Positions 1-12,254 of a stretch of 12,695 bases of DNA are shown piece by piece (position 1 is the stretch's first letter; each line of letters begins with the position of its first letter). The stretch covers positions 1 through 12,695 of the forward strand of contig JACQVT010000677.1 of the NCBI GenBank assembly GCA_016209665.1. The letters are read 5' to 3'. The notes under the pieces were generated by a model that made no database searches, had not been told where the DNA came from, and saw only the letters and a list, made by a program, of their open reading frames with translations. The stretch comes from Planctomycetota bacterium. GTDB lineage: Bacteria > Planctomycetota > Phycisphaerae > UBA1845 > PWPN01. Made by a program: the position numbers and the translations under genes.

Positions 1-1054
1 CGATGAACCGAGCCACGTCCATCTCGTGCATGTACGCCACACCGTTCAGTTCGCCTCCGGCCCCGCAGCCGAGGCCCAGCACGTCAACGCCCCCAAGCCG
101 CGACCCGTTGTAGGTGCGGGTCTCCACGCCTTCGCGTCCGTAGTGGAAAGGCAACATCCGCCGCCAACCCGGCCGGCCGAGCAGCGCTCGATCCGCCTGC
201 CGGTGCAGGTAGTACTCGACGTTTATGCCGCCGAGCGGCGGCTCCTGCCCGGCCGCGATTGCCCGGCACAGTCCGCTGTTGGGAAACGGGATCAAGCCAT
301 ACACGCTGGCCCCGCTCGCCGGCGTGGATGCGAGGCACCGCAGATCGTCCGCCCAGGTGGCCTCGGTCTGGCCGGGCAGGTTATAGATCAAATCGACGCT
401 GATGCTGCCGAAGCCGAGCCGGCCGGCGGCATCGAGCGTGCGCAGAATTCCATCGTGGTCCACCACGCGGCCGATCCGCCCCCGGATCTGCGTGTCGAAC
501 GTCTGCACGCCGAAGCTGACGCGGTTGACCCCGGCGTCGCGCAGGCAAGCGAGGTAGTCCTCATCCACGCCGTCGAACCGCGCTTCCACCGTGAACTCGC
601 ACGTCGGGTCGAGCGGAAACCGCTCGCGCACCTGCCGAACCAGCCCGACGAGTGAGTCCGCATCGAGGACCGTCGGCGTGCCGCCCCCGAAATAGACGGC
701 GGCAAATGGCCGGGCCCGGCTCCACCGCCGCCGGGCGACGGCGTCGATCTCGCGGCCCAGTGCCGCGACGTAGGGATCGATCGCCGGACTCACCGCCTGG
801 CGGATGAACGCGCAGAACGTGCAGATGCGCCGGCAGAATGGCACGTGCAGGTAAAGCACCCGCGGCCGATCGCTGTGGGTCTCGTCGAGCACGGCGGCCA
901 GGCGGCGGCAGGCGGCGTCACCTCGACACATACGTCCGCCCAGGCCCGCGGTGGCCTCCTGGTGCGTCCGGACCCGCCGGTCGAACCACTCCCAAACCGG
1001 CCGGCCCGCCCGTTTGCGGCGCAGGGCCTCGTGCACTTGGAGCGCGGAATTCAT
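1..1054 (-). CDS. hutW: Radical SAM heme-utilization protein HutW/ChuW-like, 3' end cut by window edge
   Basis: The open frame runs from ATG at 1054 to the window edge (351 codons) without a stop, so the C-terminus is missing. The radical SAM cluster motif is CRRICTFC (C74, C78, C81) after LYLHVPF, followed by GGGTPT at 123-128, then EFTVEARFDG and NRVSFGVQTFDTQIRGRIGR, and later DLIYNLPGQTE. The CTFC form and the FGVQTFDTQIR block fit the HutW/ChuW branch better than HemN (CYFC) or HemW (CxYCDF). In E. coli O157:H7 the relative ChuW opens heme anaerobically to anaerobilin using SAM, releasing iron. The start is supported by GGAG seven bases upstream, inside the end of hutX; the gap to hutX is only 4 bp, so the two are probably translationally coupled. 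The residue after the third cluster Cys is Ala where Gly is usual (CTFCGF). A generic HemN-like protein is the alternative, but the hutX neighbour argues for HutW. Confidence 0.88.
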   Translation of the reverse strand, partial: MNSALQVHEALRRKRAGRPVWEWFDRRVRTHQEATAGLGGRMCRGDAACRRLAAVLDETHSDRPRVLYLHVPFCRRICTFCAFIRQAVSPAIDPYVAALGREIDAVARRRWSRARPFAAVYFGGGTPTVLDADSLVGLVRQVRERFPLDPTCEFTVEARFDGVDEDYLACLRDAGVNRVSFGVQTFDTQIRGRIGRVVDHDGILRTLDAAGRLGFGSISVDLIYNLPGQTEATWADDLRCLASTPASGASVYGLIPFPNSGLCRAIAAGQEPPLGGINVEYYLHRQADRALLGRPGWRRMLPFHYGREGVETRTYNGSRLGGVDVLGLGCGAGGELNGVAYMHEMDVARFI

Positions 1055-1058
1055 GGCG

Positions 1059-1616
1059 TCACTCCGAGACACCGCCGCCGGCGAACGCCTGCCGCAGTTC
1101 TTCGAACATCGCCCGCCGTTCCGCCGGCACCTCCTTGCCACCGAAACTCAGGAACACCTTGAACACCGAAGCCCCCTGGCGATCGTAGAACTGAAACGAC
1201 AACACCTTGACGCCGTCCATGTGGCTGGGCTTGGTCACCGCGAAAACTGCGGCGACGGCCTCCTCGCGGATGTGCATGTCCAGCGACGGCGTCTGCACGT
1301 TGAGATAACCGCCCCAGTTGCTGAACTTCCCGAACTCGCCGTGGCATTCGAGCGTCGCCCCGGCGCTGTTGACGACGACGTGGGTCTTGCCGAACCGTTC
1401 GAACTGGCGCACCAGGTCCTGCCACTGCGAGGCGTCCAGTTCCGTGACCTGCTCGGCGGGCAGGGCCCGAATCACATGGACCTCGGCGACGTTCAACTCG
1501 CGGGCCAGTTGCGAGGTCATCTTGTGCGGCTCGCGGGCCAACGCCTCGCGTACCCGCTCCTGAACGCCGGTGTCCGCCGTTGCCGATGGTTTCCGATCGA
1601 TCAATTCCGTCCGCAT
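1059..1616 (-). CDS. hutX: Heme utilization cytosolic carrier protein HutX/ChuX-like
   Basis: This 185-residue protein matches the size and layout of the HutX/HuvX/ChuX family, which binds heme in the cytoplasm and hands it to the degrading enzyme. Residues about 18-53 form a helix-turn-helix-like N-terminus (TSQLARELNVAEVHVIRALP). The following alpha/beta part has family-like blocks: THVVVNSAGATLECHGEF (78-95), WGGYLNVQ (101-108), HIREEAVAAVFAVTKP (115-130), LSFQFYDRQGASVFKVFLSF (139-158). The ATG at 1616 is preceded by a strong GGAGG seven bases upstream. A much longer reading in the same frame exists further upstream, but it lies inside the pilin gene and has no ribosome site of its own. 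The gene sits 35 bp after the pseudopilin and 4 bp before hutW, so it belongs to the same transcript. The family assignment is by recalled motifs, not alignment. Confidence 0.87.
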   Translation of the reverse strand: MRTELIDRKPSATADTGVQERVREALAREPHKMTSQLARELNVAEVHVIRALPAEQVTELDASQWQDLVRQFERFGKTHVVVNSAGATLECHGEFGKFSNWGGYLNVQTPSLDMHIREEAVAAVFAVTKPSHMDGVKVLSFQFYDRQGASVFKVFLSFGGKEVPAERRAMFEELRQAFAGGGVSE

Positions 1617-1651
1617 GAGTGGTCCTCCAATCTGGACGCCTGGTTCCTTGT

Positions 1652-2470
1652 TCAATATCCCGGCCAATGCTGCTGCCAGTACCGCGTGAAGTAGATGTCC
1701 ACGCGGTCGCCGTCGGCGTGCAGCTCGTGATAGGCCGGTTTGGGGCCGTTCCCCAGCGTGTTGGCCTCGAACTGCGAGCGGGCGTTGCCCAGATCGTAGC
1801 GCACGTTCGGCGCCCCGAAGTGGGGGTAGATCGGTTTGCCCAGGGCGGGCTGACCACCCAGGGCCTCGGCGACGATCGCCCGCCTCACGTTCCACCAGCC
1901 CTTTTTGTTTCGGTTGAGGGCGGGTGCCTGGACGTACCGCCGGCCGTCGAGCAGCCGCAGCGGCCGGCCGTCGAAATGTGTGTAGTTGCTGACCGCCGGG
2001 TCGAAAACGCCGCCAGTGTTGGCACTCACGTTTCGATCGTAGGGCACGCCCTGCCCGATCTTCCCGGCCGAGCTGAACGTGTACGTCAGCTTCCATCCGC
2101 CGCAGCCCGCGTTGGCCGGAAACCCCGCCGACGCCGACGGGCATCGCCAACTCCCCGGCTGCACGTACCGCGTCAGTACCCGGCCCGCGGTCGTCGGATA
2201 CCGCGGATCGAACGGGTCCGCGTTGGGCTGCGACAGATTCACGTCTTCCAGGAACGGCAGACGCTCCTTGAATTGCAGCGTGTACGCCAGGATGCCCGTC
2301 CAGATGCTCCGCAGGTTGTTGCGGCACACGAGCTGGCGGGACCGCTCGCGGGCCTGGGCCAGCGACGGCCACAGGATGCTGACCAGCAGGGCGATCACGG
2401 CAATGACCACCAGCACCTCGATGAGCGTGAAGCCCCTGCGATTGCCATTCCGATCGCGTCGTGTCTGCAT
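1652..2470 (-). CDS. Type IV pilin-like (pseudopilin) protein with prepilin cleavage signal
   Basis: This is a 272-residue protein. The N-terminus carries a class III signal: basic residues, then [22 protein letters not shown]. Cleavage by prepilin peptidase is expected after G13, leaving F14 to be methylated, and the mature Glu5 (E18) is present. One hydrophobic helix (about 14-34) is followed by a globular domain with cysteines near C49 and a C-terminal [18 protein letters not shown] stretch. That tail recalls the H-X9-DG tail common in planctomycete pilin-like proteins, but I could not fit the exact spacing. ATG 2470 was chosen because GAGGTG lies eight bases upstream; an alternative ATG at 2488 overlaps the stop of the preceding gene and would add MSEVTP. 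Planctomycetes encode many such proteins, often beside dockerin-like secreted proteins, and their roles are mostly unknown. Here it sits between a secreted protein and the heme genes, suggesting a cell-surface or periplasmic role in the same process. Confidence 0.85.
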
Positions 2471-2480
2471 GGGTGTCACC

Positions 2481-3638
2481 TCACTCATCGCAGTGCGGCT
2501 GCGGGTCGTTGCCCGGCCCGCTGGAACACCGCTGCCACGCGGCGAAATCCGTTGAGTCCACATCCAGATCGTTATCGAAGTCCGCCCGCTCGCATCCGGT
2601 CGCGGGCGGACCCAAGCCCGGCCCGGTTTGGCAGACCTCGAATGCGTCCAGGTCGTCCTCGTCCACGTCGCAATCGAAATCGAAGTCCGGGCCGACCGGC
2701 TGACAGGCGTCGATGTCCAAGCGAGCCGCCTTGGCACCGGGGTCCAGCGACAGCCCCTCCTTCATGAAGAACGCCGGGAGCTGCGGCCCTGAGCCGAACA
2801 TCAGGGCCTCCCGCAGGGATGTCACGTAGACGGCCACGCGCCCGGCGTTCAGTTGCTCCCGGAAGTACCACCGGACGCTGCCGCCGCTCAGGCCGAGATC
2901 CACGTCGAAGGTCACGTCGAACGGTGTCGGCTGACTGCCCGGTGTGTACTGCTGGGGATTACCGATTGCCCACGGCTGTGGCGTGAACTGGTACACGCCC
3001 AGCCCCGCGTTGTGCAGCCCCTTGACGTTGTCCTCGACGTGCAATGCGTCGGGGCCACCGCCCAGGAACACGAACGGGAACGGATCGCGCGGCAGGTCCG
3101 ACACACTGTCCGAGCCGACGTATAGACTCGTCTCGGTCCAGGTTTGCAGCGTATACGTTGGGCCGAAACCGGCCCCGAACAGCTCGATCGGCCGGCCGGC
3201 ATCCGCGTCGTCGCTTTCGCCGTCGAGGTCGCCGGGCTCGCCCCGAGCCACGCCATCCGCGTTGAGCTGGTCGTCACCGTTCACGTCGTAGGTGAACCAC
3301 TCGTCCACGGTCGTGTCGATCTGCCAGGTGGCGTCTTTCGGGTTGGTCAGCGTGACGCGGACCGACCGCACGCCGTAGGCTTCCACGCCGAGACCGGCGG
3401 GCAACAGCGCCCCGGTGTTCCAGACCACGACCACGCAGCCGTCCCGATCGTTGAACGCCGCCGAGCCCGCCGCGCCGAAACAAGTGGCCACCGACCGCGT
3501 GCCCGGCGTGAAGCTGAACGGGTAGTGCCAGCGATCATACATCGGCGTCGCGGAACTGAACGGCTCCCCGCGCGCGGGTCTCGTGACACCGATCCCGACA
3601 AGCATCAGGCAACACATCACGTAGCGCATCATCGTCAT
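2481..3638 (-). CDS. Secreted protein with dockerin-like C-terminal repeats, function unknown
   Basis: This is a 385-residue protein. An N-terminal signal peptide ([24 protein letters not shown]) is followed by a globular region of about 285 residues that I do not recognise as a named domain. It contains [15 protein letters not shown] (34-48), an acidic calcium-loop-like segment [12 protein letters not shown] (118-129), and [13 protein letters not shown] (147-159). I recall similar YDRW...P and GRPVELFGAGF wording from other planctomycete proteins. The C-terminus has two dockerin-type calcium-loop repeats, about 318-336 and 352-371, each ending in Cys and a TGPG or SGPG turn (CQTGPG, CSSGPG). 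Such tails are common in planctomycete secreted proteins and may mediate surface attachment. The start is uncertain: ATG 3638 lies only three bases after GGGGG, whereas ATG 3632 gives better spacing (eight bases). The stop overlaps the alternative ATG of the pilin gene. A 12-bp hairpin lies just before the ribosome site. Confidence 0.82.
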
Positions 3639-3645
3639 GACCCCC

Positions 3646-3687
3646 GGGGCGAACGTGGCCGTGCTGCCGCACAGACACGTTCGCCCC
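3646..3687. repeat. 12-bp inverted repeat next to the ribosome site of the dockerin-like gene
   Basis: The arms GGGGCGAACGTG (3646-3657) and CACGTTCGCCCC (3676-3687) are perfect complements, with an 18-base loop that can form a small inner GTGC/GCAC stem. It lies 18 bases after the PEP-CTERM stop codon, and on the minus strand its 3' arm directly abuts the GGGGG ribosome site of the next gene. There is no T-run on either side, so it is not a standard intrinsic terminator. It may set the ratio of the two surface proteins by processing, stability or translation control; this is inference. Confidence 0.75.
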
Positions 3688-3705
3688 AGCGCTCGTTTTC
3701 CTCGG

Positions 3706-4413
3706 TCACGCCGTACCTGCCCGCCGGCGAGCACCACACAGCACCATTCCGAGGCCAAGCAGCGATGCCATCACCGGCTCGGGCACCGGGTTGGGCTCGG
3801 GCAGGTACGTCGGCCCGGTGATGCTGTCCACCGCCACGCGGTCCAGGCTCATGTGCGGACCGGTTGCCGCGAACTCAACGGTGAACGACGGAGCCGAGTA
3901 GGGCAGGTGAAACTTGAACCAAGTCTCGACGGCATAGCCGCCTGGTCCGCCGAGTGCCTCCCTCAGCAACTCGCCCTGGTCCACCGGCGTAACGCCGCCG
4001 ATGTTCATCGTGCCCATGTTGATCTCGGCGCCCAGCGTGCGCGTCTGAAGGATGACCGTTGTGACGCTGCTCCCCGCCGCGTAGTCGGGCACGGCCACGT
4101 CGATGTCCAGCGGGCCGAACGGCGAATAGATGTTCTCCCCGCCGGCGATAAAGCCGTCGGTCGCGTTGGTCACCGTGGCCGTGCCGTTCGGATTGAACGA
4201 CCCCACGTCCGGCGAGTTCGGCGCCGTCGCGCTGGTGAACACGTTCCATTCCTGGTACGTCGTGCCCGCCTGCCCGCGCGTCCACGTCGCCGGCGCGTTG
4301 AACGCCGCCTGGGCCGACGCCGCTATCACCGCCATTGCCGTGGCGCCGGCCATCGTCAGCCAGCCATTCATTCCCGTTCCACCATTCCCGCAAGTCCTCA
4401 TCGTGCGAACCAT
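3706..4413 (-). CDS. PEP-CTERM sorting domain surface protein
   Basis: This is a 235-residue protein. A long N-terminal export signal ends near AASAQAAF (about 31-38). The middle, rich in Thr, Ala, Gly and Asn, looks like a beta-rich extracellular domain of unknown function. The C-terminus is a clear PEP-CTERM signal: VPEP (210-213), the hydrophobic helix VMASLLGLGMVLCG, and a basic RRR end. In the family, exosortase recognises this tail and the protein is processed at the envelope or released into extracellular matrix; no exosortase gene is in this window. ATG 4413 was chosen because AGGAG lies nine bases upstream; a later ATG at residue 15 (MNGWLTM) would also give a good signal peptide. 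It is the first gene of the predicted five-gene heme operon, about 400 bp after a Fur-box-like palindrome. What it binds cannot be told from the sequence. Confidence 0.82.
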   Translation of the reverse strand: MVRTMRTCGNGGTGMNGWLTMAGATAMAVIAASAQAAFNAPATWTRGQAGTTYQEWNVFTSATAPNSPDVGSFNPNGTATVTNATDGFIAGGENIYSPFGPLDIDVAVPDYAAGSSVTTVILQTRTLGAEINMGTMNIGGVTPVDQGELLREALGGPGGYAVETWFKFHLPYSAPSFTVEFAATGPHMSLDRVAVDSITGPTYLPEPNPVPEPVMASLLGLGMVLCGARRRAGTA

Positions 4414-4555
4414 GACACGTTTCTCCTCATCAAAAACCATTGGTTTCATTTCCCGGTCCGTGCTTGGACCTCTCTGTTCACGTCACGACACTCAGCGGCT
4501 TCACATCCCGTGCGAATCTCGATGTATCGAACTCGCCGGCCACCTCCTGACAAAC

Positions 4556-4654
4556 GGCTGAGCGGCGGCCGGGAGACGGGCGATCGCCCGAGGACTCCGG
4601 CGCGCCGCCTGCGGGGAATGGCGAACCCCCCACACGGCGAACCGCCGCTCAGCC
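4556..4654. repeat. 13-bp inverted repeat enclosing nested palindromes, in the leader of the heme operon
   Basis: The arms GGCTGAGCGGCGG (4556-4568) and CCGCCGCTCAGCC (4642-4654) are perfect complements 73 bases apart. Between them lie a 14-base palindrome CGGGCGATCGCCCG (4577-4590), an 8-base palindrome GGCGCGCC (4599-4606) and two direct copies of GGCGAACC (4620-4627, 4636-4643). As RNA this could fold into a multi-branched structure closed by the long stem. It sits 142 bases upstream of the PEP-CTERM start, within the predicted minus-strand leader. No ribosome site or plausible reading frame was found in it. Confidence 0.7.
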
Positions 4655-4685
4655 AAGCCAAATCTCAACCGGGAAGGGAATTTCC

Positions 4686-4714
4686 TTGCGGAAAGGTGTC
4701 GCGGGTGGGATAAT
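4686..4714 (+). promoter_or_regulatory. Candidate plus-strand promoter
   Basis: The sequence TTGCGG (4686-4691), a 17-base spacer and GATAAT (4709-4714) resemble a sigma-70 type promoter, with the -10 box matching TATAAT at five of six positions. Transcription would start near 4721 and read toward the intrinsic terminator at 4868-4889. No protein gene lies downstream on this strand, so it would make a non-coding RNA. The match is modest, and such matches arise by chance. Confidence 0.32.
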
Positions 4715-4751
4715 GCCACCAGCGGCGGCCTTCACCGGTTGTCGCCAACAT

Positions 4752-4791
4752 TGGGCGGTCAGGAGACTTTTTCGAGGACTCTGACCGCCCA
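4752..4791. repeat. 11-bp perfect inverted repeat (hairpin)
   Basis: TGGGCGGTCAG (4752-4762) and CTGACCGCCCA (4781-4791) are perfect complements separated by 18 bases. Reading on the plus strand, the stem is followed by ATTTCTTTGGTTTTCC, which is T-rich but interrupted, so it is at best a weak plus-strand terminator. On the minus strand it would be a hairpin about 45 nt into the predicted leader of the heme operon. The sequence CGAGGACTC in its loop (4773-4781) recurs at 4589-4597. Confidence 0.7.
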
Positions 4792-4813
4792 TTTCTTTGG
4801 TTTTCCACGCAAA

Positions 4814-4828
4814 TGAGACTGAGTCTCA
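4814..4828. promoter_or_regulatory. Fur-box-like operator (7-1-7 palindrome)
   Basis: TGAGACT-G-AGTCTCA is a perfect inverted repeat around one central base. The classic Fur box, in its 7-1-7 form, is TGATAAT-N-ATTATCA, with TGAnAAT-N-ATTnTCA variants in many bacteria. The geometry and the TGA...TCA ends agree; the inner A/T to C/G change at one symmetrical pair does not. It lies at about +7 to +21 relative to the start predicted from the minus-strand promoter, a typical place for repression. The heme genes hutX and hutW downstream make iron control sensible. Another dimeric repressor could use the same site. Confidence 0.55.
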
Positions 4829-4841
4829 ATTGCCACGGCCT

Positions 4842-6730: not shown

Positions 6731-7711
6731 TCAGATGACCCGACTGCGCAAAGGGCCGCCTGCCAGTGCGCTGGCGACTTCGCGGGCGGCCTTGGATCGC
6801 ATCTCAGCCAGTGAGGCCTCCGAGTAGAAAGCGCTGTGAGGCGTCAAGACCAGGCTGATCGGTGGGTCGGCATCGGACTGCCACAGTCGGACCAGCGGCG
6901 ACGCAGCTTCCGGCGGCTCATGAGGCAGGACATCGATGCCCGCCCCGGCCAGACGGCGTTTCTGCAGGGCGGCGGCAAGGGCCTCGACGTCCACGACCGC
7001 CCCCCGGGCCGTATTGATCAGAATCGCGGTCGGCTTCATTTGGGCCAACGCCCGGGCATCGATCATAGCCCGGGTCTCTTCGGTCAGGGGAACGTGCAGG
7101 GAGACGACGTCGCTCCTCCTGAGAAGTTCCTCCAGGCCGACGAGTGTTACGCCCAGGGCCTTGTCGACCCCTGGCCGAACGTAAGGATCGCACGCCAGCA
7201 CATTCATCTTCAGGGCCTTGCACCTCAACGCCATCGCCGTTCCAATTCGCCCCAGCCCGATGATCCCCATGATCGCGTCGGCCAGCCGGAACACCGGGGC
7301 CACGGCCCGGTAGTCCCAGGGGGATAGGCTTGCCCGCAGCCTCCGCTCCGTCTGGACGATCCCGCGCTGGCACGCCAGCATCAGGGCCATCGCGTGGTCG
7401 GCGACCTCATCGACGCCGTAATCCGGCACGTTGCACACCATGATGCCCCTGGCCCGTGCCGCGTCGAGATCGATGTTGTCGAAGCCCGCACCGGCCCGGA
7501 CGATGATGCGACACCGTGCCAGTACCCCAATGACCTCGGCGGGAATAGATATCTCGTGGAAAACGATCAACGCGTGGGCGTTCTCGATCTGGCCAAAAAG
7601 CTGCCGGAACGATCTGGCCTGCAAGCACCGGAGCCTGGCCAAGCCGCCGAGCACTTGTTCTTCGATGTCCGCGGGAGGGGCAATGTAGTCGGTGATCACG
7701 ACGTCGTACAT
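6731..7711 (-). CDS. D-isomer-specific 2-hydroxyacid dehydrogenase (CtBP-like)
   Basis: This is a 326-residue NAD(P)-dependent oxidoreductase that interconverts a 2-keto acid and a D-2-hydroxy acid. The nucleotide motif is GLGRIG (152-157). The catalytic triad is seen as R236 (INTARGAVVD), E265 (PHEPP) and H292 (TPHSAFYSE). The TPHSAFYS ending is typical of the CtBP-like branch. ATG 7711 is used, but GGAG is 12 bases upstream; TTG 7717 has better spacing (six bases), and the frame is open to GTG 7744. It follows the SDR gene by 107 bp on the same strand, so it may be the last gene of the sugar-acid block or have its own promoter, though none was seen. A phosphoglycerate dehydrogenase is less likely because there is no ACT or C-terminal regulatory domain. 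The substrate is unknown. Confidence 0.88.
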   Translation of the reverse strand: MYDVVITDYIAPPADIEEQVLGGLARLRCLQARSFRQLFGQIENAHALIVFHEISIPAEVIGVLARCRIIVRAGAGFDNIDLDAARARGIMVCNVPDYGVDEVADHAMALMLACQRGIVQTERRLRASLSPWDYRAVAPVFRLADAIMGIIGLGRIGTAMALRCKALKMNVLACDPYVRPGVDKALGVTLVGLEELLRRSDVVSLHVPLTEETRAMIDARALAQMKPTAILINTARGAVVDVEALAAALQKRRLAGAGIDVLPHEPPEAASPLVRLWQSDADPPISLVLTPHSAFYSEASLAEMRSKAAREVASALAGGPLRSRVI

Positions 7712-7818
7712 AGACAAGAAAAACTCCACCTTTTGCAAACCCACCGGCGTCGCCCCGTCCGCGGGTCAGTCGCCCGCGCCGGCGTTTTCCATCTGCGCGG
7801 AGCGATCCGCCACAAACG

Positions 7819-8634
7819 TCATCGGTCCGTCCTGTCCAGCCTGGTGACGGCTTGAGCGCTTTCTCCGATCAGCATGGCCGTCATGCCGCCATCCGTCATG
7901 ATGCTGGCCCCCGTGATGTAGGAGGCCTCATCCGAAGCCAGAAAGGCCACCAGATTGCCCACTTCCTCCGGCTGCTGAACGCGTTTGATGGGGATGTGTG
8001 CCATCCAGAACGCCTCCGCCTCTTTCGGGTCACTGGCCGCCCGCTTGATGTCCGACCATATCTGCGTGTCCGTCAGACCCGGATTCACCACGTTGATGCG
8101 AATGCCCAGAGGGGCAAATTCGATGGCCATCGACTTGGTCATCGCCATCACGCCCCCCTTGGCGGCAGCGTAAGGCGCCGCCGCCGGCAGCGTGGCGTGG
8201 CAGTGCACGGACGCGATGTTGATGATCGCGCCCCCCTTTTGCCTGGCCATCTCTCGCAGGGCGGCCTGACTGCAAAGGAACGTCCCCTTGAGGTCGACGC
8301 TGATCACGCGCTCCCAGTCCGCCTCGTTCATCTCCAGGGTCGGCTTGACAAAGTTGACGCCGGCGTTGTTGACCAGGATGTCCAGCGATCCGAAACTGGA
8401 GACCGTTCGCGCCACCATCTCGCGGACCTGCGATTCGGAGGACACGTCGGCCTTGATGAACAGGCACTGATGGCCCCGCTCGGTGAGGGCGGCGGCCACC
8501 CGTTTCCCGTTGGCCTCGTGAACGTCGTTCACGACGACCACGGCGCCGCATCGAGCGAGCACGCGGGCGATCCCCTCCCCGATCCCCGAACCCGCCCCGG
8601 TGACCACGGCAACTTTGTTCTTCAGTTCTGGCAT
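7819..8634 (-). CDS. SDR family oxidoreductase (sugar dehydrogenase-like)
   Basis: This is a classical short-chain dehydrogenase of 271 residues. The cofactor motif is TGAGSGIG (12-19), with D37 after the second strand suggesting NAD preference; NNAG is at 89-92. The active site is S142, Y155 and K159 (Y-A-A-A-K). The C-terminal YITGASIMTDGG block is also present. The ATG at 8634 is preceded by AAAGGA, and the gene overlaps the end of the amidohydrolase gene by 13 bp, a sign of coupling. Beside a lactonase-like hydrolase, a sensible role is oxidation of a free sugar at C1 to a lactone, as in L-fucose or galactose dehydrogenases, or oxidation of a sugar acid. The sugar itself cannot be read from the sequence, and generic 3-oxoacyl reductase activity cannot be excluded. 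Confidence 0.88.
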   Translation of the reverse strand: MPELKNKVAVVTGAGSGIGEGIARVLARCGAVVVVNDVHEANGKRVAAALTERGHQCLFIKADVSSESQVREMVARTVSSFGSLDILVNNAGVNFVKPTLEMNEADWERVISVDLKGTFLCSQAALREMARQKGGAIINIASVHCHATLPAAAPYAAAKGGVMAMTKSMAIEFAPLGIRINVVNPGLTDTQIWSDIKRAASDPKEAEAFWMAHIPIKRVQQPEEVGNLVAFLASDEASYITGASIMTDGGMTAMLIGESAQAVTRLDRTDR

Positions 8635-9518
8635 GGCGTTCGTCCTTTCATCTCATCAGCACCTCGGTTCAGGCGATAGAACGAAATGGCGTTTTCGCGG
8701 AACACTTTGCGAAGCTCGGACTGCGAGCATCCATCGAGTGCCCGGCAAAGCGTCTCCACCCAGCGCGGATACGTGGTGGCCTGAAAGGCCACCGGCCAGT
8801 CGCCGCCATACATGACACGGTCCACGCCGAAGCACGACAGGACGTGGTCAAGATACGGCTTCAGATCCTTCGGAGTCCACCGCTCCATGTCGGCCTCCGT
8901 GACCAGGCCGGACAGCTTGCAGTGGACGCTCGGGAACCGGGCCAAGTCCTCGATCTGGGTCATCCACGGCTCGAACACCTGCTCCTTGATGTTCGGCTTG
9001 CCGATGTGGTCAAGGATGAAGCTGACTTCGGGACACTGGCGCACGAACTCGATCGTGTTGGCCAGATGGTGGTGAGCGATGCAGATGTCAAAGGAAAAGC
9101 CGAACCGGGGAAGCTGGCGGACGCCCTCGATGAACGCCGGTCGGAGACAGAAGTCGGGATCAGGCTCGAATTGGATGATGCGCCGGACGCCTTTGACAAG
9201 GGGATTGCGGGCCAGGTGCTCGAGCCGCGGGCATACCGCTTCACCCTTCTCCAGCGGAGCCCACGAGACCAGGCCCTCGATCCGCGGATCCTCACCGGCC
9301 AGGTCCGTGACCCACTGGGTCTCCCGTTCATATTGCTCGGGCGCGCACTCGCACTGCACGAACACCATCTTCTCGACCTGGATCGAACCGCAGGTGCGGT
9401 CAAAGTCGCCGAGCAGATACGGCTTGTTCAACAGGGGGATGCCGTCCAGCCAGGGGTAACGCAAATGAGATGGATCCCACAAATGCAAATGAGTGTCGAC
9501 AATGGGGAATTCAACCAT
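8622..9518 (-). CDS. Amidohydrolase family protein, L-fuconolactonase-like
   Basis: This is a 298-residue TIM-barrel amidohydrolase of the COG3618 type, which includes L-fucono-lactonase and 2-pyrone-4,6-dicarboxylate lactonase. The motifs are VDTHLHLWDP (H10, H12), AHHHL (148-152), LDHIGKP (169-175; D170, H171), CKLSGL (200-205) and YGGDWPV (237-243; D240), all in the expected order. It probably opens a sugar lactone to the aldonic acid in the cytoplasm; there is no signal peptide. ATG 9518 is supported by GAGG nine bases upstream. It is 21 bp after the LamG/propeller gene and overlaps the SDR gene by 13 bp, so the three are almost certainly co-transcribed. The pair dehydrogenase plus lactonase fits the non-phosphorylating oxidation of a sugar; L-fucose is a guess based on the family name only. 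Confidence 0.85.
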   Translation of the reverse strand: MVEFPIVDTHLHLWDPSHLRYPWLDGIPLLNKPYLLGDFDRTCGSIQVEKMVFVQCECAPEQYERETQWVTDLAGEDPRIEGLVSWAPLEKGEAVCPRLEHLARNPLVKGVRRIIQFEPDPDFCLRPAFIEGVRQLPRFGFSFDICIAHHHLANTIEFVRQCPEVSFILDHIGKPNIKEQVFEPWMTQIEDLARFPSVHCKLSGLVTEADMERWTPKDLKPYLDHVLSCFGVDRVMYGGDWPVAFQATTYPRWVETLCRALDGCSQSELRKVFRENAISFYRLNRGADEMKGRTPCQN

Positions 9519-9539
9519 GGCCCGCCACCTCGTTCCCCG

Positions 9540-12254
9540 TCACTCTGACGGTCCTGCATCCTTGAACTGAAACGCGTAGAGTTTCGCGGACGCCATCCTG
9601 AAGTGCAGTTTCAGCGGCCTGCCCCGAAAAGCGGCCAGATCGCCGCTGCCCTGCCATCGGACCTCCCAGGCGACGTCGTCGCACGAGATCTCCTCGCAAT
9701 CGGCCAGCGAGTAGCCGGGGATGGGCTCATCGTTGAGATCACGCAGTTCCACGAAGATCGTGCCCTGCCCGCCGCACTGATGATTCAGGTAAAGGCGATT
9801 TCCGCTGAACGTGATGGGCGGGGTCGTGATCCATCCACCCCGGTAGTCGACCTCCGCCGACACGAAGCCGTCCAGACGTTGGCACACGGCGATCAGCCCC
9901 GACCGATTCGGCATCGGAGGCATGTCGTCCCGCAGCAGCACCGAGTCGTGCAGGTTGCCCGTATACCAGTAGTACTGGTACAGATCGTTGCCCGCGCGGA
10001 CCATGCCCAGGCCGGTCATCGTTCTCATGCGATCTTCCTGGTCGTTTCGGCCCATAGGGACGTAGGCGGAGCGATCGACGCGGTCCCAATGGATCCCGTC
10101 GCGGCTGACGGCGAGAACCGTCTCCAGCGGCCCGTTGGCGTCGTCGAACCGCGGAAACCACGGCTGGCGCGAAGGATGGAAATGCCGGAAGAAGGTCGGA
10201 AACATCAGGTACACGTCCTGGGCATAGGGGTAGATGACGGGGGCATCGGTGTAGAAATCGGCAAACCCGTCCCATCCATCGGCCCAGAAGACCATCTTCA
10301 CCTGGTTGGCGGTGGCATACAACGTCTCCTGTTCGGCGTTGGCCGCCACGGGCCAGGGCTTGAGCAGATCGTCGGTCTCGATGCGGCCGACCGCCCTGAG
10401 GTTCTCGAGCCCCGCAGCGAACATGTTCTCGGGGCCGACGGCCTCCACCCACCCCTCCGGCTTCTCGGACGAGTACCCATACTTGTAGAAGAACTGATTG
10501 CCCTGGATGGCGGTCAGGCCCCCGACGCCCGGGCCCGCGTTCTGCACGCGAAACCAGACGACGTATTTGCTGATGTTGGGATCCCAGTAGGGCGCCGGCG
10601 TCGTGAACTCGGGCAAAATGGGCAGGACCCGGCCCGCGGTTTTGAAGCGAAGACCATCGGCCGAGTAGAAAGCGTATACTCCGACCAGCGAACGCTTGTC
10701 CTTGCCGCCGGCGAGAGAAACCAGTTCCTGGCCCTCGGCGTCCAGGGCATGATAGTTGAGTTCCTGGAACGCCTTATACCGGCGCTGCGGCGCGTCGACC
10801 GGGTCGTACATTACGACCGTCCCGAAGTCGAGCGGCACAAGCCGGCCCTTGTCCCTTTCCGACTCGTAGCCGATATGGCCCGGACCGAACTGGGTCCAGT
10901 GAATCCCGTCGCCGGATTCCGCGTGCTGCAACCGGGCGAAGGGTGAGTAATACATGCGCCACACCTTTCGCCCCTCATCATAGATGATGTTCCTGGGGTA
11001 ATGGGCCCCCGGGAAATCGACCTTGATCTTCTGGGGTTGGTTGGCCCGCAGCCTGAGGTTGTGGCTGGCCTCGATGAAACGGCGGTCAATGAAGAGTTGC
11101 TTGCGGTCGGAAACGTCCCGGACATCGGTGGCCACGGTCAGTTTCACGGGCACCTCGACCCCATCGAACGTACCTGCCCGCACCTTCAGGTTCACCGTGT
11201 AATGACCCGGCTCCAGAGTAGCGGCGGACACCCCCACCACCACCGTTTGACCCTCGCCGGTCAGGGTTCCCTGGCTTCGATCCAGAGAGAGCCACTCGGC
11301 CTCTTCGTGAATCGCCCAGGGTATCGACGGCAGGTTGGAGGAGATGGTCATCCTGCATTCGTCCGTGAGCCCCTTGCCTCTCACAACGACGGCGCTGAGC
11401 ATCGGCGGCCAGACGCGCAAAAAAGGTCGGGCGAGACTGCCGGGGGGCTCGAAGTTATCGTGATACAGCGCTTCGTCGGAGAACCGCATCTCATCAATCA
11501 GCCCCTGAAACTTCTTCATGTGCCGTTCGTGTGAGTGCAGCTCGTGATGGTCCCACTGCTGGTGGGCATCACGCATGCCGATCTGCAGCATGGGGTAATG
11601 CGGCGGAAAGACCACGTCGCGATAAGGCGGTTCACCGATGACCACCTGTTTCCACACGCCCTTGGCGGTGAATTGCCGCCGTCCGTCGAAGTAGTGTCGC
11701 AGTTCATGACGCGCTGAATCATAGACCACGGCGAAATGGTGATACTGATCGTCGGCCTTCAGGTCGCCGGTCGGCTTGTTCCACGCCCGTGGCCCGTCAA
11801 TGGGCAGGAAGCGGCGGGCGATATAAAGACCGACCGGGTTGTCTCCTCGCCCATAGTCGATGTAGTTCACGCCGGACAGGCCCCAGATGCGGTTGTCCGC
11901 CCGCATGTCGGCCCGGGCCTTCAGCCAACATTCCAGCGTCCAGTTTGCGTCACCGGGGTTCAGCGCGTCCTCGGCCTTGTACCGGTAAGCTCCCAAACCA
12001 TCGCGGGGGGTGGCGTCGGGGTTGAGGGCATGGCCGAACTTGCCCCCCTCCACGATAGCCGCATCGGGACCGAGCGCGAGATGGAAGCCGTGGCCGCTCG
12101 AATCCACCGCAACCTCGGAACCGGGCGGATCATCAAACAGCCACAGGGCCACCGTCGCCGCCCACACCGGCAGGGGATGCAGCACCATCGCAAACAACCA
12201 CGCCCCGCCAGGCATGGCCCACCGCGCGGCCTTCCACCTTCGTTCACCATCCAT
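9540..12254 (-). CDS. Large secreted LamG / beta-propeller protein (possible glycoside-active)
   Basis: This is a 904-residue protein. The signal peptide ends near VWAA (about 30-33). Residues about 34-265 form a LamG/concanavalin-A-like domain (VALWLFDD, DANWTLECWLKA, HHFAVVYDS, GLIDEMRFSDEAL). Residues about 280-375 look like an Ig or BACON-like beta-sandwich (EWLSLDRSQGTL, LEPGHYTVNLKV). From KQLFIDRRFIEAS (386-398) to about 790 there are repeated propeller-blade phrases such as SGDGIHWTQ, SADGLRFKTA, APYWDPNISKYVVWFR and SRDGIHWDRV, recalling GH32/GH43-like five-bladed propellers. The tail (about 800-900) is another beta-sandwich (DLAAFRGRPLKLHFRM, KLYAFQF). I could not identify a catalytic acid pair, so enzymatic activity is unproven; a carbohydrate-binding role is possible. 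ATG 12254 has GGAGG upstream and gives a good signal peptide; the frame runs further upstream but that part overlaps the symporter gene. Confidence 0.8.
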   Translation of the reverse strand: MDGERRWKAARWAMPGGAWLFAMVLHPLPVWAATVALWLFDDPPGSEVAVDSSGHGFHLALGPDAAIVEGGKFGHALNPDATPRDGLGAYRYKAEDALNPGDANWTLECWLKARADMRADNRIWGLSGVNYIDYGRGDNPVGLYIARRFLPIDGPRAWNKPTGDLKADDQYHHFAVVYDSARHELRHYFDGRRQFTAKGVWKQVVIGEPPYRDVVFPPHYPMLQIGMRDAHQQWDHHELHSHERHMKKFQGLIDEMRFSDEALYHDNFEPPGSLARPFLRVWPPMLSAVVVRGKGLTDECRMTISSNLPSIPWAIHEEAEWLSLDRSQGTLTGEGQTVVVGVSAATLEPGHYTVNLKVRAGTFDGVEVPVKLTVATDVRDVSDRKQLFIDRRFIEASHNLRLRANQPQKIKVDFPGAHYPRNIIYDEGRKVWRMYYSPFARLQHAESGDGIHWTQFGPGHIGYESERDKGRLVPLDFGTVVMYDPVDAPQRRYKAFQELNYHALDAEGQELVSLAGGKDKRSLVGVYAFYSADGLRFKTAGRVLPILPEFTTPAPYWDPNISKYVVWFRVQNAGPGVGGLTAIQGNQFFYKYGYSSEKPEGWVEAVGPENMFAAGLENLRAVGRIETDDLLKPWPVAANAEQETLYATANQVKMVFWADGWDGFADFYTDAPVIYPYAQDVYLMFPTFFRHFHPSRQPWFPRFDDANGPLETVLAVSRDGIHWDRVDRSAYVPMGRNDQEDRMRTMTGLGMVRAGNDLYQYYWYTGNLHDSVLLRDDMPPMPNRSGLIAVCQRLDGFVSAEVDYRGGWITTPPITFSGNRLYLNHQCGGQGTIFVELRDLNDEPIPGYSLADCEEISCDDVAWEVRWQGSGDLAAFRGRPLKLHFRMASAKLYAFQFKDAGPSE

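Follow-up and report, generated by a model that had tools for sequence, protein, structure and literature searches.

Introduction

In the hutWXZ and chu operons of Proteobacteria, genes for a HutX carrier and a HutW-type radical S-adenosylmethionine (SAM) enzyme stand side by side, with a Fur-type site upstream; the roles of both proteins are established for their families. The same gene pair, likewise behind a Fur-type site, is found on a contig of 12,695 bases from a Planctomycetota bacterium (Phycisphaerae; GenBank JACQVT010000677.1), which was analysed over its full length and is called the window here. It is contig G000:C593 of a genome, G000, of 940 contigs and 77.6% completeness, and its end falls inside hutW. 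Unlike the hutWXZ and chu operons, the contig shows no HutZ, TonB receptor or heme ATP-binding cassette (ABC) transporter; three exported proteins are encoded instead, which are not known to us from hut operons.

A dedicated operon for anaerobic iron release from heme is also described for Bacteroidota in PMC12583661, namely the hmu operon with the de-chelatase HmuS; the window, unlike hmu, has the radical SAM enzyme HutW. A likeness to hmu is that a chelatase-family protein adjoins the corresponding surface genes in a relative (G007), of the CbiX type rather than the CobN-like HmuS. On the regulatory side, PMC9426467 describes CruR, a copper-sensing upstream open reading frame (ORF) with a RAPP tail that heads operons of TonB receptor and PepSY_TM genes, and reports a few DUF2946 proteins in Planctomycetes. 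Ribosome arrest is shown for RAPP and RGPP, and HAPP is counted as RAPP-like, in PMC12992588 and PMC10987492; PEP-CTERM, prepilin and iron do not occur in the main text of PMC12992588.

Iron acquisition in Planctomycetota seems little described, since no paper was found that joins planctomycetes, a Fur box and iron uptake. Neither was a paper found that combines three of planctomycetes, dockerin, PEP-CTERM and iron limitation, and the literature matches listed held no prior description of a surface cassette of the kind reported here. Judged from sequence, the locus belongs to a Phycisphaerae surface cassette that appears to be iron-controlled over at least a portion of its range and that stands with exchangeable iron or heme genes at five loci.

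The cassette and its partner genes

From position 4413 down to the contig end, the minus strand of the window holds genes for a PEP-CTERM protein, a dockerin-bearing secreted protein (named dock here), a pseudopilin, HutX and HutW, with gaps of 67, 10, 35 and 4 bp. An earlier reading of the letters of the window without database searches (the sequence-only reading) had claimed this layout, and order, strand and gaps were borne out; the identities it gave to HutX, HutW and pseudopilin were upheld at family level by models and, for HutW, by the radical SAM motif, and a PEP-CTERM protein and a dockerin are plausible from the features given below.

Dock and pseudopilin form a unit, usually behind a PEP-CTERM gene, which is termed the cassette. 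Removal of duplicates left 32 distinct cassette loci (window, L040-L053, L105, L109, L110, L113-L115, L117-L119, L122, L123, L125, L127, L169, L171-L173), several of them closely related (genomes of one genus, or the two G030 loci), which means that the counts are not independent; some of the fetched stretches are short. The gene arrangement is not chance: a pilin relative stands behind dock in 31 of the 32 loci, the exception being L123. In 24 loci a PEP-CTERM relative, of one type or the other, is found upstream, and in L105 downstream. The conserved unit is dock plus pseudopilin, usually behind a PEP-CTERM protein, and hutXW is not a constant partner. The sequence-only reading had taken a heme operon joining hutXW to surface genes as a type and had proposed a search for these neighbours across planctomycetes; as a rule the type is refuted, since the DNA fetched for the other 31 cassettes yields neither a hutX nor a hutW match. 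Where relatives have the surface genes, these mostly stand without hutXW, an outcome which that reading had itself named as refuting, and hutX was found in only 3 of 61 relatives searched (across the phylum in 11 of 392 genomes, with weak matches among them).

Iron or heme partner genes are present at five of the 32 loci, the hutXW of the window included. In L040 (G007) the pilin gene is followed by genes for a CbiX-family protein (54.1 bits, cut-off 22) and a PepSY_TM-like protein, with gaps of 80 and 2 bp; in L119 a CbiX-like protein follows the pilin, borderline at 20.9 bits against the same cut-off of 22; in L052 (G031) a heme oxygenase gene precedes a leader ORF (described below), just upstream and on the same strand; and in L169 (G491) the PEP genes are preceded by a fusion of a DtxR-type regulator with FeoA and, after it, FeoB. 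Pfam assignments of neighbours cover a selection that does not include two genes of L045 (509 and 291 aa), the second M16 gene of L049 and the second PEP gene of L169. A gene for a periplasmic-binding protein (PF01497) lies on the opposite strand in L118.

Two further contigs appear to carry relatives of both HutX and dock. P0134, the best outside HutX (75% identity), and the dock protein P0029 (64% identity) are both assigned to a contig of 285,690 bases with the same source labels, and the next HutX, P0135 (72%), and the dock protein P0089 (53%) to one of 8,225 bases; the pairing relies on matching contig sizes and source labels among the 120 best matches of each search.

Dock was found over its core in 14 of 61 relatives, and a core-only profile (E up to 1e-30) detected it in 30 of 114 order genomes. 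A scan of genome collections gave 25 dock loci, all in planctomycete metagenome-assembled genomes, mostly Phycisphaerae or Phycisphaerales, and a profile search returned at least 248 dock proteins at E up to 0.001 (7,997 candidates scored). Heme oxygenase has one match each in 39 of the 114 order genomes and is somewhat commoner with dock (15/30 against 24/84 genomes, p 0.04). It was found neither in the window genome nor in 12 other members of its family, and since this family shows no heme oxygenase, hutXW may take its place in the window genome.

No TonB receptor accompanies the operon on the side present on the contig, genes past hutW lying beyond the contig; no TonB plug domain was found in G000, which is 77.6% complete, and no gene for a heme membrane transporter was seen on the contig. 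The idea that the cassette is a general substitute for a TonB receptor was rejected: a plug domain occurs in 16 of the 30 genomes with dock and in 35 of the 84 order genomes without it (p 0.29). In a post hoc split, the plug domain was found in none of the six order genomes with a Fur-box cassette (G000, G007, G030, G056, G059, G503) and in 16 of the 24 other dock-bearing genomes (p 0.005).

The Fur-type box

About 400 bp before the PEP-CTERM start at 4413 lies a perfect 7-1-7 palindrome, TGAGACTGAGTCTCA (4814..4828, minus strand), with one mismatch to the 17-bp form TTGAGAMTSAKTCTCAA; the sequence-only reading had missed it. The motif is rare, with seven sites in G000 (15-base form) and 3-10 in five relatives (17-base form), each at up to two mismatches, and none for the backward control. 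It precedes feoB in G000 (2 mismatches), G007 (2), G056 (1) and G059 (1), and heme oxygenase in G030 (0 mismatches); the G000 feoB site is the two-mismatch variant TGAGACTCAATCTCC, so that the window operon has upstream of it a Fur-type inverted repeat in common with an iron gene of its own genome. Because it is rare and precedes feoB and heme oxygenase, the palindrome very probably represents their Fur box. Eight of the 32 cassettes (window, L040, L041, L042, L043, L044, L110, L123) have the box with 0 or 1 mismatch of 17. A box at every locus was rejected: in 27 upstream stretches the best match had either at most one mismatch (8) or at least five (19).

Downstream of the box, a hairpin (4757..4786, minus strand) lies between it and the first gene and is common to the window and its closest cassette, that of G007, only: with up to 3 mismatches, one copy each was found in G000 and G007 and none in G001, G003, G010 and G030. 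A structured stretch with a long GC-rich stem (4450..4756, minus strand) follows before the first gene; the fold of 4450-4830 has a z of -4.96 against 100 shuffles. Its part 4545-4665 is present as a single copy in G000 and was not found in G001 or G007. Since neither occurs more than once in any genome searched, an origin of hairpin or long stem from a dispersed repeat is unsupported. The window gave no Rfam match.

Boxes were also seen at other genes. Kelch-repeat proteins follow Fur-type boxes at L095, L097 and the cassettes L041, L042 and L110; large exported ones lie directly behind the box at L095:5686-7968, L097:3290-5521, L041:9799-12027 and L110:4438-6444 (Pfam on three of the four), and such genes adjoin the cassette in some genomes and stand elsewhere in others. 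A lone prepilin-like gene beside a mutY-like gene has a box upstream in two genomes of the same genus (L072:3765-3779 on G000:C334, 0 mismatches; L100:about 5481 on G001:C62, 2 mismatches). At L090 the box is near a ferritin-like gene, not upstream of that gene, and boxes at, for example, L092, L094, L099, L101 and L102 have no clear iron gene. The similar palindromes GTTTTGCCTAAGGCAAAC (L051, upstream of 6494) and GTTCGCCTAGGCGTAC (L169, upstream of the DtxR-FeoA gene) are perhaps a DtxR-type operator in place of the Fur box. A further palindrome, ATGCAACTTGCAT, is common to the close kin L045, L047 and L109, about 19 bp before the leader start and just behind promoter-like sequence; it is a possible operator of another metal regulator.

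Proteins of the apparent operon

The secreted PEP-CTERM protein (3706..4413, minus strand) is encoded by the first gene of the apparent operon, with its start best placed at 4413 (GAGGAG nine bases upstream). It scores 15.2 against TIGR02595 (cut-off 16) and shows by eye VPEP, a hydrophobic stretch and RRR; relatives precede dock in L169 and a pilin in L063.

Dock (2481..3638, minus strand) is a secreted protein with a jelly-roll core like that of carbohydrate-binding modules (CBM; about residues 21-315) and a C-terminal dockerin (about 311-378). The window protein has no Pfam match. PF00404 (dockerin) matches 10 of 28 aligned relatives, residues 311-378 of the structural model align to a solved dockerin, and the 28 sequences share 40 invariant columns besides the start. 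In the model the core looks like a carbohydrate-binding jelly roll of polysaccharide-binding type. Dock is 13-14% identical to alginate- and chondroitin-sulfate-binding CBMs (7vbo, 8wab) and, unlike them, has a dockerin and apparent iron control. Direct heme binding by dock is unsupported; its CBM-like core speaks more for attachment, or for the scavenging of iron or heme that is bound to polymers.

The prepilin-like pseudopilin (1652..2470, minus strand), the near-constant partner of dock, matches N_methyl with 35.5 bits. Its N-terminus fits the models for GspG and PilA in all 15 relatives aligned (15 of 15), the window protein itself scoring well under those cut-offs. Good ribosome-binding sites precede the pilin gene and hutX.

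HutX (1059..1616, minus strand) belongs to the ChuX/HutX family of cytosolic heme carriers, with 97.7 bits against PF06228 (cut-off 25) and a solved relative, 5exv, at E 4.9e-15. Since its 91.3 bits against the NCBI equivalog TIGR04108 are under the cut-off of 110, it is named at family level only. The HutW/ChuW-like radical SAM heme-opening enzyme (2..1054, minus strand) carries CRRICTFC, a CxxxCxxC radical SAM motif, and its best model is TIGR04107 HutW (E 4.2e-82; 276 bits against 146 for HemW); the score is below the cut-off of 400 in a gene cut by the contig, the match covering model positions 11-325 of 419.

The leader of related loci

Among the 30 loci whose upstream DNA is long enough, 25 have a short ORF with a RAPP-like C-terminus ahead of the cassette (e.g., L041:4485-5054, L110:6462-7007). 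The leaders end in RAPP or, in seven of the 25, in HAPP, NAPP, RGPP, RPPP or RDPP; counting NAPP, RPPP and RDPP as RAPP-like is an extension made in this analysis. Such ends are rare, occurring in 31 of 2,613 distinct six-frame ORFs of at least 90 aa in the scanned loci, 25 of which are the leaders and 6 others. An invariant Trp, two invariant His and a final Pro-Pro are shared by 21 aligned leaders. Both His recur in 15 of 16 added leader sequences, some from the same genomes as the first 21; L127, which is cut, shows only the second. Hydrophobicity profiles of six leaders gave four spans in five and three in one, with one invariant His in the first span and one in the third, and the structural model has four main helices (mean predicted local distance difference test, pLDDT, 70.6) and no convincing match in the PDB (best E 4.1). 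Membership in DoxX was rejected, with matches for 2 of 21 only (best E 0.0023).

As with the CruR/DUF2946 leaders of PMC9426467, a small membrane-targeted first ORF ends in RAPP and is followed by a long gap and then by exported genes, which are metal-related for CruR. Unlike those leaders, the present ones have about four predicted spans with the two invariant His within them, no conserved CXXC (no column holds Cys in at least 8 of 21) and no DUF2946 (PF11162) match in 21 at E up to 1. Also unlike CruR as described there, a Fur box lies upstream in five leader-bearing loci, and the window itself is without a leader: none was found in a three-frame minus-strand translation of its upstream region. 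The leader is likewise absent from G007, the closest relative, and window and G007 carry the hairpin in its place. Folding of the region between leader and next gene at 21 loci gave z of -3.6 to +0.4 with no consistent signal of a common RNA structure.

The leader appears to be an undescribed membrane protein family, and its short membrane-targeted first ORF and C-terminal motif predict a RAPP-like arrest peptide; if it does stall ribosomes, RAPP arrest peptides would gain a role in iron or heme control. The two His may hold heme b. A tentative proposal, which we regard as unlikely, is that the leader is a new kind of nascent multi-span sensor, in which self-stalling at RAPP and heme or iron on the His of helices 1 and 3 would make translation or read-through into the surface genes follow heme supply. 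The leader would then correspond, for heme or iron, to the copper leader CruR, and the surface genes would allow Phycisphaerae to capture heme or iron independently of TonB.

Proposed function and alternatives

Our preferred reading, held with slightly better than even confidence, is that the window carries an iron-repressed operon in which a surface capture or attachment module is combined with exchangeable iron-release genes. At low iron, Fur would leave the box at 4814-4828 and a single transcript would then yield the three exported proteins and the heme-use pair. The PEP-CTERM protein, the CBM/dockerin protein and the pseudopilin could assemble at the surface and keep polymer or particles that carry iron or heme close to the cell. 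Heme, once across the membranes, would be taken in the cytosol by HutX to HutW, which would open it without oxygen and so free the iron. Some relatives would use the same surface set with other iron-release or import genes (heme oxygenase, the CbiX-type protein with PepSY, FeoB).

The sequence-only reading had inferred a different kind of heme capture or delivery at the planctomycete surface. The broader idea of iron or heme acquisition gains support from the Fur-type box at eight cassettes, the iron or heme partners at four other loci and the two contigs that apparently carry HutX and dock; 'heme operon' proved too narrow a name, because the surface genes lack hutXW in most relatives. The surface set recurs, is linked to Fur over part of its range and stands with heme or iron enzymes that are exchangeable; it would provide candidate genes for planctomycete iron acquisition and a function that can be tested for the PEP-CTERM, dockerin and pseudopilin proteins of Planctomycetota. 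The occurrence of the surface genes beside other iron genes in some relatives suggests that there may be a route to iron that has not been described.

Several observations weigh against an iron-acquisition operon of this kind. No box was found within 3 mismatches at 24 of the 32 loci (4.5 kb upstream of dock, or the available part), and 27 are without any of the partner genes searched for. Dock is patchy in the family of the window, being present in G000 and only in G007 of 12 other members; G001, of the same genus and 100% complete, lacks both dock and hutX. In G030, hutX lies on a different contig from the four dock genes, which are spread over two contigs, and heme oxygenase and dock co-occur in 15 genomes and adjoin in G031 only. 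The dock frame of L119 is interrupted by a stop codon (same contig as G484:C331), hutW of the window is incomplete (351 aa present, the remainder beyond the contig end), and the modelled core of dock looks like modules that bind alginate and chondroitin rather than like a hemophore.

A rather unlikely alternative, though the strongest, is that the three surface proteins make up a module for adhesion or biofilm formation, induced by iron shortage, which attaches the cell to polysaccharide particles and handles neither iron nor heme, hutXW merely sharing its iron-controlled promoter. Against this, the presence of four kinds of iron or heme gene across five loci, two of them starting less than 100 bp from the pilin stop (35 bp in the window, 80 bp in L040), suggests that the link goes beyond a common promoter. 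That the cassette serves metals generally, copper, manganese or iron according to the regulator, with iron as one case, appears quite improbable. It would account for the 20 loci that have a RAPP-like leader and no Fur box, for the other palindromes at L045, L047, L109 and L051, and for the likeness to the RAPP-tailed copper sensor CruR at the head of TonB receptor and PepSY_TM operons (PMC9426467); yet the metal-related cassette partners identified, within the selection of neighbours run through Pfam, are all iron or tetrapyrrole genes, and the leaders lack both a conserved Cys column and a DUF2946 match. Most improbable is a local accident that placed hutXW beside the surface genes without functional meaning, as the 31 other cassettes without a nearby hutX or hutW match might imply, given gaps of only 35 and 4 bp, two further contigs that appear to hold HutX and dock, and in G031 another heme-opening enzyme, heme oxygenase, just upstream on the same strand.

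Other genes of the window

Positions 6731-12254 of the minus strand hold genes for a hydroxyacid dehydrogenase, a short-chain dehydrogenase/reductase (SDR), a fuconolactonase-like amidohydrolase and a large exported protein, a run that looks like a sugar-degradation cluster.

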